Program-made: the position numbers and the translations under genes
The notes under the pieces: model-generated
The model's database searches: none
What the model was told of the DNA's origin: nothing
The model's input: only the letters and a program-made list of their open reading frames with translations
In this document: in pieces, positions 58,753-61,371 of the stretch
Numbering within the stretch: the first letter of the stretch is position 1
How the letters are laid out: the number at the start of each line of letters is the position of its first letter
DNA from: Leisingera sp. JC1
GTDB taxonomy: Bacteria; Pseudomonadota; Alphaproteobacteria; Rhodobacterales; Rhodobacteraceae
NCBI RefSeq assembly: GCF_001679925.1
Contig: NZ_LYUZ01000001.1
Coordinates: 8,336-72,335 of the forward strand
Reading direction: 5' to 3'
DNA length: 64,000 nucleotides

Positions 58753-58924
58753 GCAAGGTGCCGCCCCTTGGGGCGGAGAATTGGGAAGCTGGTGAAACTC
58801 CGGCACTGCCCCCGCAACGGTGACCCCGGGCAAGGCATGGCAATGACCACTGAAGCAGCGGCTTCGGGAAGGTGCCAGGCCCCGCCGCCGAATGGCCCCG
58901 GGACAGTCCGGAAACCAGCCTTGC
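58753..58924 (+). ncRNA. Cobalamin (AdoCbl-type) riboswitch
   Basis: All conserved blocks of the B12 riboswitch appear in order. The closing stem P1 is GCAAGG (58753-58758) with CCTTGC (58919-58924). The core has GGGAAGCTGGTGAAACTCC (58783-58801), then ACTGCCCCCGCAACGGTGA (58805-58823; consensus CTGCCCCCGCAACGGT) and, near the 3' end, CAGTCCGGAAACCAGCC (58904-58920; consensus AGTCCGGA-ACC-GCC). It lies in the 578-base leader of the Rieske oxygenase gene, on the same strand. It should lower expression when adenosylcobalamin or another cobalamin is abundant. The 58511-58752 stretch before it holds the promoter and nothing else I can name. Confidence 0.95.
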
Positions 58925-58980
58925 CCCGATAACGTCAACCGCGGGCGGCGGCGGGGCGGTTGCAGGCGCGTGGCCTGCGA

Positions 58981-59040
58981 TCTCTCCCCCCCATGCCCGC
59001 AGCCAAGCCAACCTGCCGCGGGGATGCGGCAAAGGAGAGA
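58981..59040 (+). promoter_or_regulatory. Ribosome-site-sequestering stem (riboswitch expression platform)
   Basis: TCTCTCC (58981-58987) is perfectly complementary to GGAGAGA (59034-59040), which is the Shine-Dalgarno of the oxygenase gene 5 bases before its ATG. Inside lies TGCCGC/GCGGCA (59014-59031). Between the aptamer and this stem are two more hairpins, CAACCGC/GCGGTTG (58936-58962) and GCAGGC/GCCTGC (58962-58978), which may mediate switching. This suggests translational control. Confidence 0.65.
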
Positions 59041-59045
59041 AGCAA

Positions 59046-60281
59046 ATGCTTCACGACAGCGAAATTCTGGCCAAACTGGTCGCCCGTCAGAAAAACTATT
59101 CCCTGGAGCAGGCGTTTTACACCGATCCGGGCGTGCTGGATCTGGACATGCGCCAGATCTTCTACCGCGAGTGGCTGTTTGCCATTCCGGCCTGCGAGAT
59201 CCCCAAGGCGGGCAATTTCGTGACCCATCAGGTCGGCGCCTACAACGTTATCATCGTGCGCGGCACCGATGGTGAGGTGCGTGCGTTCCACAATGCCTGC
59301 CGCCACCGCGGTTCGGTTGTCTGCAAGGCCAAGAAGGGCAACTCGCCCAAGCTGGTCTGCCCCTACCACCAGTGGACTTATGAGCTGGACGGCTCACTGC
59401 TGTGGGCGCGCGATATGGGGCCTGACTTCGATGCCTCCAAACACGGGCTGAAACCGGTGCACTGCCGCGATCTGGCGGGGCTGATCTACATCTGCCTGGC
59501 GGATGAGGCGCCGGATTTTGACGCCTTTGCTGAAATGGCCCGCCCCTATCTGGAGCCGCATGACCTGGCCAATGCCAAGGTCGCCTATGAAAGCTCGATC
59601 ATCGAGAACGGCAACTGGAAGCTGGTCTGGGAGAACAACCGCGAGTGCTATCACTGCGGCGGCAACCACCCGTCGCTGTGCCGGACCTTCCCGGAAGATC
59701 CGTCCGTCACCGGTGTTGAGGGCGGCGTGACCCCGCCGCACCTGCAGAAGCATTTCGACCGGATCGAGGCGGCAGGTGTGCCCGCGCAGTTCCAGATCGA
59801 CGCGCGCGGCCAGTACCGTGTGGCGCGGATGCCGCTTAATGAGGGCGCCGAGAGCTATACCATGGACGGCAAGGCGGCTGTCGCCAAGAAGCTGGGCCGG
59901 GTGCCGTTTGCCGATGCGGGCACGCTGCTGAAGTTCCACTACCCGACCACCTGGAACCACTTCCTGCCGGATCATTCCATCGTGTTCCGGGTGACCCCGA
60001 TCAGCCCGACCGAAACCGAAGTCACCACCAAATGGCTGGTGCACAAGGACGCGGTCGAGGGCCAGGATTACGACCTGAAGCGGCTGACCGAGGTCTGGGT
60101 TGCCACCAACGACGAGGACCGCATCGTGGTCGAGGACAACCAGCGCGGCATCAACTCGCCCGCTTATGAGCCCGGTCCCTATTCGGAAGTGCAGGAAAGC
60201 GGCGTCATCCAATTCTCCAACTGGTATGCCGAGCACCTGACCCGCGCGCTGACCGGCCGCCACCTGATCGCGGCGGAGTAA
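59046..60281 (+). CDS. gbcA: Rieske-type oxygenase, glycine-betaine/stachydrine demethylase-like
   Basis: Oxygenase component (411 residues) of a two-component Rieske monooxygenase. The Rieske [2Fe-2S] site is CRHRG...CPYHQW (about residues 84-107); the mononuclear iron site is in [15 protein letters not shown] (about 200-214) with two His. It most resembles GbcA, which demethylates glycine betaine to dimethylglycine and formaldehyde; stachydrine or carnitine-type substrates are alternatives. ATG 59046 follows AAGGAGAGA, the site caught in the predicted riboswitch stem. The reductase follows after 4 bases. Confidence 0.86.
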
Positions 60282-60285
60282 CGGC

Positions 60286-61371
60286 ATGGGACTGCAGGCA
60301 AATTTCGAGACGCTGGACGAAACTCTGGCGTGGAAGGACGACGAGATGCTGGAATGCGTCTCTGTCGTGCCGGAAGCGCCGAACACCACCACCTTCAGCT
60401 TCCGCGCGCCGTCCGGCGCGTGGTTCAAATACCAGCCGGGCCAGTTCCTGACGCTGGAGCTGCCGGTGCCGGGCGGCACTGTCTGGCGAACCTACACCAT
60501 CAGTTCGTCGCCGTCGCGGCCCTTGTCGATCTCAGTGACGGTGAAGGCGCAAGGAGACAGCATCGGCACGCGCTGGATGCTGGACCACCTGCGTCCGGGC
60601 ATGTTCCTCAAAGCCTCCGGCCCGGCGGGCGTGTTCACCCTGCCGAAACGCCCGAACGGCAAATTCCTGTTCATCTCCGCAGGCTCCGGCATCACGCCGA
60701 GCCTGTCGATGACGCAGTATCTGTTCGACCGCGGCCAGTCGCCGGACGTCTGTTTCATCAACTGCGCCAAGCGGCCCAGCGAGATTATCGCGCGGCGCCA
60801 GCTGGAGGGCATGGCGGCTCGGGTGCCGGGGATCAAGCTGCACTTCGTGGTGGAGGAGGACGACCCCTATCAGGTCTGGACCGGCTACCGCGGACAGCTG
60901 AATCAGATCATGCTGGGCCTGATCGCCGGCGACTATCTGGAGCGCGAGGTCTATTGCTGCGGGCCGGAGCCGTTCATGCAGGCGGTGCGCGACATGCTGA
61001 ACGGCCTCGGCTTTGACATGGAGAACTACAACCAGGAAAGCTTTGGCGCGCCGGTAGCGACGGAGGCAGACGCACCGGAGCTGGACGATGTGGTGCCGGA
61101 AGAGACCGCTGCCGCGGAGATCGCCTTTGCGGCATCGGGCGTGACCGCAACTTGTACCGAGACCGACACCGTGCTGGCAGTGGCCAAGGCATCGGGCCTC
61201 AACATCCCGTCTGGTTGCACCTTTGGCATCTGCGGCACCTGCAAGGTTAAGAAGACCGCGGGTGATGTGCATATGGTCCACAACGGCGGCATCTCGGAAG
61301 AGGACATTGAGGCGGGGTATATCCTGGCCTGCTGTTCAAACCCGATTGGCCGGGTCGAAGTGGACATCTGA
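60286..61371 (+). CDS. gbcB: Ferredoxin reductase component of the Rieske monooxygenase
   Basis: A 361-residue reductase that passes electrons from NAD(P)H to the Rieske oxygenase. FAD binding uses RTYTISSSPS (about 66-75), the NAD domain has LFISAGSGITPSLSMTQYLFDRG and EVYCCGPEPFMQAVRDML, and a C-terminal plant-type [2Fe-2S] ferredoxin domain holds SGCTFGICGTCKVKK and a final Cys in AGYILACCSNP. This order (FAD, NAD, ferredoxin) matches GbcB. It is translated 4 bases after gbcA, in the same riboswitch-controlled message. Confidence 0.9.
   Translation: MGLQANFETLDETLAWKDDEMLECVSVVPEAPNTTTFSFRAPSGAWFKYQPGQFLTLELPVPGGTVWRTYTISSSPSRPLSISVTVKAQGDSIGTRWMLDHLRPGMFLKASGPAGVFTLPKRPNGKFLFISAGSGITPSLSMTQYLFDRGQSPDVCFINCAKRPSEIIARRQLEGMAARVPGIKLHFVVEEDDPYQVWTGYRGQLNQIMLGLIAGDYLEREVYCCGPEPFMQAVRDMLNGLGFDMENYNQESFGAPVATEADAPELDDVVPEETAAAEIAFAASGVTATCTETDTVLAVAKASGLNIPSGCTFGICGTCKVKKTAGDVHMVHNGGISEEDIEAGYILACCSNPIGRVEVDI

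Follow-up and report, generated by a model that had tools for sequence, protein, structure and literature searches.

A cobalamin riboswitch precedes genes for a Stc2/GbcA-family Rieske oxygenase in Leisingera and related roseobacters

Architecture of the locus

The window, by which we mean the whole stretch of 64,000 nucleotides (nt) analyzed from Leisingera sp. JC1 (contig NZ_LYUZ01000001.1, positions 8,336 to 72,335), was found to contain a cobalamin (vitamin B12) riboswitch that is followed on the same strand by the gene pair of a two-component Rieske oxygenase. The unit comprises the following features:

58739-58937, + strand: cobalamin riboswitch aptamer (RF00174), 107.2 bits over the full model (1-189), with the same gene downstream in relatives
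59046-60281, + strand: Rieske oxygenase alpha subunit of the Stc2/GbcA family ("gbcA-like"), 411 residues, with Pfam Rieske and Ring_hydroxyl_A domains
60286-61371, + strand: flavin adenine dinucleotide (FAD)/nicotinamide adenine dinucleotide (NAD)/2Fe-2S reductase ("gbcB-like"), 361 residues, with Pfam NAD_binding_1, Fer2 and FAD_binding_6 domains

The Rfam scan revealed that the aptamer at 58739-58937 (+) matched model positions 1-189 of 189 with a score of 107.2 bits, compared with a gathering score of 31.5, and an E-value of 7.4e-26; as a whole-model covariance match above the gathering score, it belongs to RF00174. An earlier, sequence-only reading of this region had described a complete B12 aptamer directly upstream of the genes on the same strand. 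The scan confirmed this description, with the 3' end of the aptamer 108 nt before the ATG (59046) of the oxygenase gene, and showed that the start given earlier (58753) was 14 nt inside the match. The oxygenase and reductase genes are located on the same strand with 4 nt between them. Upstream of the aptamer are divergent genes of the RibD_C and TetR types, and downstream of the pair is a gene for ribose-5-phosphate isomerase B. A sigma-70 consensus scan of 58350-59100 revealed no promoters (0.2 in shuffled sequences), a result of little weight either way.

The host genome (5.19 megabases in 168 contigs) contains six cobalamin riboswitches. From these numbers we calculated that about 2e-4 riboswitches would be expected by chance within 400 nt upstream of one given gene on the right strand. 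A chance juxtaposition of the aptamer and the gene pair was ruled out by the conservation of the arrangement across relatives.

Conservation of the riboswitch-gene association

The aptamer was present upstream of the gene in 18 of 19 loci from other Leisingera genomes, and the gene itself was found in 19 of the 20 other genomes of the genus (G017, which is 90% complete, showed only a 36% paralogue). The Leisingera locus L037 has an intact gene, and its leader (region L037:1135-1550) shares 77% identity with the window leader, yet no Rfam aptamer was detected in it; this locus shows that the gene can be retained when the aptamer decays. There was also no aptamer upstream of the gene in L038, which comes from another genus.

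Among named relatives, taken as the best 80 of 593 candidates, the aptamer was located directly upstream on the same strand in 23, with 22 full matches and one borderline fragment (L067, 32.0 bits). In successive batches of 16 relatives, it was found in 15, 6 (including the fragment), 0, 0 and 2. The switch-bearing relatives include Loktanella, Sulfitobacter, Phaeobacter, Shimia, Ruegeria, Pseudophaeobacter, Pelagimonas, Roseibium, Marivivens and Pacificoceanicola. In a family survey of 120 genomes, one per genus, the enzyme was found at E<=1e-150 in 22 (our own included), and the aptamer was upstream in 8 of 20 loci scanned; these represent 20 of the 21 new loci, the second copy L182 having been left out. 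Thus, the comparison of leaders across gbcAB relatives in Roseobacters, which the sequence-only reading had proposed as a check, revealed a link that is kept across genera.

We mapped the switch on a tree of 121 rows, all of them scanned for the aptamer and 50 of them switch-bearing. The switch label changed 8 times, compared with 38.6 times in shuffles, and none of the 500 shuffles was as low; near-copies help this figure, and L181 fills only 36% of the columns. This tree was rebuilt with scanned rows only from an earlier tree of 128 rows (11 label changes versus 35.6 shuffled, and 10 without the two Protein Data Bank rows), in which 25 rows labeled as lacking a riboswitch were unscanned (L039-L047, L128-L137 and L139-L144). 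One of these, L144, proved to be the same gene as L164, where the switch is present; L018 and L138 had been left out of the 128-row tree as copies of the window gene. The switch was found in two enzyme groups, a main group at least 71% identical to the window protein and a second group at 58-63% (L119, L127, L173, L174 and L178). Additionally, a divergent LysR gene adjoined 26 of the 57 copies that lack the switch and none of the 23 that have it, counts that are not corrected for ancestry; from these, the B12 switch seems to occupy the place that a transcription factor holds in relatives.

Several individual loci showed further features. L167 contained three cobalamin riboswitches (789-981, 1173-1372 and 3828-4029) within 4.2 kilobases around one gbcAB unit. 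In L178 (1-419), the same-strand frame that follows the gbcB-like gene resembled the start of MetH by eye, which would place a B12-dependent enzyme behind a B12 switch. Two Paracoccus loci carried SECIS_3 elements (L123:7071-7129 and L126:7062-7120; 80.4 bits, cut-off 63) downstream of their gbcA-like genes.

Leader RNA and putative expression platform

The region between the aptamer and the start codon contains the following elements:

58939-58951, + strand: hairpin just after the aptamer, CCGC-GGGCG-GCGG, from the RNAalifold consensus of 21 leaders
58981-58987, + strand: anti-Shine-Dalgarno arm TCTCTCC, a perfect complement of GGAGAGA at 59034-59040
59014-59031, + strand: hairpin adjoining the ribosome site, TGCCGC-GGGGAT-GCGGCA, present in 25 of 26 leaders
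59031-59040, + strand: Shine-Dalgarno region AAAGGAGAGA, from the sequence

The leader p-values given below were obtained by shuffling the letters of sequences that are related to one another, and they exaggerate the strength of the evidence. The sequence-only reading had pointed to a perfect 7-base-pair stem, TCTCTCC/GGAGAGA, able to hide the ribosome site of the oxygenase gene. The stem exists (shuffle p = 0.022 in the window), and it reached p<0.05 in 4 of 6 Leisingera leaders (Fisher 4.6e-4, from closely related sequences). Outside Leisingera, none of 21 leaders reached p<0.05 (helix score, Fisher 0.67), and the duplex energy in 21 leaders had a mean z of -0.16. The stem was therefore not supported as a general platform and appears to be a Leisingera feature; what recurs instead is the hairpin abutting the Shine-Dalgarno sequence.

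RNAalifold on 21 leaders predicted two hairpins, one immediately 3' of the aptamer and the other adjacent to the Shine-Dalgarno sequence. The first, which we take to be P13/L13 of the switch, has a nearly invariant core stem without covariation (alignment A1), and it was not favored when the 26 nt that follow the aptamer were folded as single sequences (1 of 30 leaders at p<0.05, Fisher 0.85). The second was the best stem in all leaders of the set of 26 except L077, where none was found, and ended 10-16 nt before the start codon (13-14 nt in L174 and L178). In the five leaders of the second enzyme group, its stem letters differ yet still pair, and the loop is GGGGAG or GGGAAG in 4 of the 5. 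Since alignment A2 was too rough for counting, the stems were compared leader by leader, and 8 of 26 reached p<0.05 (Fisher 2.6e-9); single-sequence folding supported this hairpin weakly (4 of 30 leaders at p<0.05, Fisher 2.9e-4). No double-sided covariation was found for either hairpin in alignment A1, where both stems hardly vary. The two hairpins have near-identical arms that could swap partners, and such an exchange may be the switching step. A kissing contact between L5 and L13 was considered on the basis of the loop letters and is not proposed here.

Relationship of the oxygenase to Stc2 and GbcA

The oxygenase scored 521.4 bits against the NCBIfam GbcA equivalog NF058607, which is below the cut-off of 670, and the reductase scored 362.3 bits against the GbcB equivalog NF058606, below the cut-off of 500. 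The solved structures nearest to the oxygenase were 3n0q (752 bits), whose entry name gives no tested function, and 3vca and 4qup (671 and 670 bits), codes that we take to be those of Stc2, the stachydrine demethylase of Sinorhizobium meliloti. The residue numbering of these two entries agrees with that of the Stc2 residues in PMC10952381. In the 128-row tree, the nine proteins above the GbcA cut-off formed a separate, distant branch, and Stc2 was located in a clade neighboring the window enzyme. Kinship (671 bits to 3vca and the neighboring clade) and the Rieske/mononuclear-iron two-domain architecture seen with Pfam place the enzyme in the Stc2 family. Its assignment as GbcA was rejected on the NCBIfam cut-off (521.4 versus 670) and the tree position; "gbcA" is a homology label only, and these matches place the enzyme closer to Stc2 than to GbcA of the Pseudomonas type. 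The earlier description of the genes as gbcA-gbcB-like therefore holds for an oxygenase/reductase pair of this family and fails for the GbcA equivalog, so that glycine betaine is not established as the substrate and proline betaine remains a candidate.

All groups compared retain the CxxC pair and the equivalents of Trp353. Position 223, a product contact in Stc2, was Thr in 39 of 39 switch-clade rows, 15 of 15 sister-clade rows and 5 of 9 GbcA rows, and Ala in 15 of 19 Stc2-clade rows; L119 has Gly and L127 has Thr. In the sister-clade locus L098, a protein encoded next to the oxygenase resembled N,N-dimethylglycine oxidase (1pj5, 366 bits). Position 223 and the L098 neighbor lean towards glycine betaine without settling the substrate, and on these comparisons glycine betaine would be the likeliest one.

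Corrinoid-dependent counterpart in the same genome

The sequence-only reading had proposed a search for corrinoid-dependent methyltransferase genes elsewhere in the genome, and such genes were found. The genome encodes 11 MttB-family proteins, the nearest of which shares 43% identity with a glycine betaine methyltransferase of solved structure, and a single B12-binding_2 protein of 232 residues, whose best NCBIfam match was MtgC (198.6 bits, below the cut-off of 370); a DUF1638 gene follows the MtgC-type gene. As in isozyme systems, a B12-dependent counterpart is thus encoded in the same genome, and the two routes may share a substrate. Two more Rieske-type genes were observed beside divergent MttB-family genes on contigs C78 (L149:5188-10106) and C13 (L155:2348-5206), with spermidine/putrescine-type ATP-binding cassette transport genes (named by eye) in the vicinity, so that genes for corrinoid-dependent and oxygen-dependent demethylases are adjacent there; the C78 enzyme and the window enzyme share 35% identity.

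Mausz et al. (2025, PMC12478193) report B12-dependent demethylation of glycine betaine as a major ocean route, report that MtgC of Ruegeria pomeroyi is needed for both glycine betaine demethylation and methionine synthesis, and consider that a DUF1638 protein probably assists when cobalamin is recharged. The word riboswitch occurs in the main text of their paper solely in a reference title. In Roseibium aquae (L060) and R. hamelinense (L063), we found the riboswitch-gbcAB unit divergent from an MtgC-type gene, which is followed by DUF1638 and, further on, by a pterin-binding methyltransferase gene (306 bits in L060, NCBIfam cut-off 259); a formate-tetrahydrofolate ligase gene is located on the other side of the unit.

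We compared gene content in 50 of the 80 named loci, comprising all 23 with the switch and the first 27 of the 57 others by rank; some of these assemblies are incomplete. MtgC-type proteins were present in 23 of 23 switch-bearing versus 19 of 27 switch-less genomes (Fisher 0.005), and MetH-length proteins in 5 of 23 versus 16 of 27 (Fisher 0.010). The median number of MttB-family proteins at E<=1e-100 was 5 in switch-bearing and 1 in switch-less genomes.

Other cobalamin riboswitches

The genome carries six cobalamin switches, one before the gbcAB-like operon and the others before nrdHIEF, single genes of the DUF1636, CbtA and BtuC types, and a cob-type cluster; nrdIEF was confirmed by Pfam, and the DUF1636-, CbtA-, BtuC- and cob-type targets were named by eye from translations. 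Isozymes controlled by cobalamin riboswitches include metE and the B12-independent ribonucleotide reductase. The genome also has a class II ribonucleotide reductase match above the cut-off, and this reductase together with the switch before nrdHIEF is the known isozyme pattern. Riboswitch control of isozymes of B12-dependent enzymes is an established category (PMC3766115). Among the 23 switch-bearing loci, nrd genes were close neighbors in 4 (L052, L059, L062 and L064), and the nrd operon of L064 has its own divergent switch. In two further loci, L098 and L103 (Salipiger bermudensis), a cobalamin riboswitch before nrd genes (L098:7833-8025 and L103:8189-8381) lies a few kilobases from a gbcA-like gene that has no switch of its own and a divergent LysR gene.

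On contig C78 (L147:5321-13216), the nrd riboswitch and nrdHIEF are followed on the same strand by LysR, mesX, mesD-type methionine synthase and flavin reductase genes. The nrd switch might also reach a B12-independent methionine synthase. MesX is described in PMC7857596 as a partner of a methionine synthase that depends on oxygen and not on B12. The idea of a general, oxygen-dependent set of B12 bypasses with MesX/MesD among them was rejected, since MesX is present in our genome and in 0 of 23 switch-bearing relatives (2 of 27 among the other named genomes).

Proposed role of the riboswitch

We favor, with a probability of about 0.6, the explanation that the cobalamin riboswitch controls an oxygen-dependent, two-component demethylase of the Stc2/GbcA family, which would be switched on at low cobalamin and would spare the corrinoid protein for methionine. 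The direction of control is that of known cobalamin switches, and control would most likely occur at translation. When cobalamin is plentiful, the bound leader would close the ribosome site, and betaine methyl groups would pass via MttB and MtgC to tetrahydrofolate. When cobalamin is short, the leader would open, the oxygenase and reductase would be made, and the Rieske enzyme would remove the methyl group as formaldehyde without using B12. MtgC would thereby be spared for methionine synthesis, for which roseobacters use the corrinoid protein as well.

The sequence-only reading, which had a B12-independent demethylase switched on when B12 is scarce and a corrinoid route in use when it is plentiful, was partly supported overall. 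The gene arrangement, its conservation and the counterpart genes agree with it; its rationale of plain replacement does not stand as well, and corrinoid sparing fits better with the double role of MtgC in Ruegeria pomeroyi (PMC12478193). A more specific proposal is offered tentatively. B12 status in roseobacters, read by the riboswitch, may pick between two chemically unrelated betaine demethylations and so spare a shared corrinoid protein, with two look-alike hairpins (CCGC-GGGyG-GCGG after the aptamer and GCCGC-GGGG-GCGGC at the ribosome site) exchanging arms.

Several results weigh against the favored explanation. Among enzymes of known function, the closest is Stc2, which demethylates proline betaine, and not GbcA; 57 of the 80 named relatives have no switch, and the 7-base-pair stem gained no support outside Leisingera. 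MtgC-type proteins also occur in most of the switch-less genomes compared (19 of 27), MetH occurs in 5 of the 23 switch genomes, and the genome contrasts for MtgC, MetH and MttB are not corrected for ancestry. In addition, the distribution of MesX indicates that a wider B12-bypass set is not general, and gbcAB homologues are reported as low in ocean abundance (PMC12478193).

Other explanations were also weighed. The same switch may serve another substrate, such as proline betaine (stachydrine), as in Stc2, or another quaternary amine, with cobalamin picking between this enzyme and another MttB-family methyltransferase. The nearest structures of known function (3vca, 671 bits) and the neighboring clade, both of Stc2, point in this direction, as do the 11 different MttB paralogues, which leave room for several betaines; Thr rather than Ala at position 223 in the switch clade (39 of 39) and the dimethylglycine-oxidase-type gene beside the sister-clade gene of L098 point away from it, neither of them decisively, and we regard this alternative as rather unlikely. 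It is less probable still that the operon feeds B12 synthesis, with betaine being demethylated at low cobalamin to provide glycine for 5-aminolevulinate and one-carbon units for corrin ring methylations. Betaine feeding raises B12 yield in fermentations (PMC5282855), and switches on cobalt or B12-synthesis-type genes were found near gbcAB in L053 and L059. However, the Roseibium neighbors are mtgC-type and one-carbon genes rather than cob genes, and this explanation does not predict that MttB and MtgC-type genes are commoner in switch-bearing genomes.

The aptamer might also be inert or might not set the expression of the gene pair, as a relic of a mobile regulatory element. The decayed aptamer beside a retained gene in L037 and the absence of an identified promoter in the sigma-70 scan would be compatible with such a relic, but the aptamer and the ribosome-site hairpin are kept across many genera and in two enzyme clades, which makes this very improbable.

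We found no report of a cobalamin riboswitch before gbcAB-like genes in the open-access literature, subscription journals being mostly outside the search. Isozyme control by cobalamin riboswitches is established; the physiologically unusual target appears to be new. As an osmolyte and nutrient, glycine betaine is important in the sea, and the locus suggests that these bacteria may change the way they digest a common osmolyte according to B12 supply. If a B12-independent route is indeed held in reserve, B12 supply would directly set osmolyte processing and the fate of methyl carbon (methyl-folate or formaldehyde), and surveys that count one demethylation route would give a wrong picture of the other. 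Being repressed by B12, such an isozyme would not be expressed in laboratory cultures with sufficient B12. The system also provides a simple test of how cells split scarce corrinoid between methionine synthesis and catabolism.

Comparison with known systems

The window enzyme resembles Stc2, its nearest relative of known function, in that the Rieske motif, the CxxC pair and the Trp353 equivalents are kept; the two differ at position 223, which is Thr in the window enzyme and Ala in Stc2. Unlike the window locus, the Stc2-clade loci scanned had no switch upstream, and many of them had a divergent LysR gene. GbcAB of Pseudomonas and Chromohalobacter has the same two-component architecture and belongs to the same family as the window pair, although the pair falls below both NCBIfam equivalog cut-offs and the GbcA branch is distant.

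As in Ruegeria pomeroyi, for which MtgBCD and a split methionine synthase are described in PMC12478193, our genome has an MtgC-type gene with a DUF1638 neighbor and MttB homologues; MtgBCD corresponds to the B12-dependent counterpart and not to the riboswitch-controlled unit. The locus is similar to the known switches of B12-independent isozymes, of which the nrd switch is an example in our own genome, in that RF00174 precedes a B12-independent enzyme and the genome also encodes a B12-dependent route. In contrast to those systems, the target here is a catabolic oxygenase, and its counterpart is an unrelated, multi-protein corrinoid methyltransferase.

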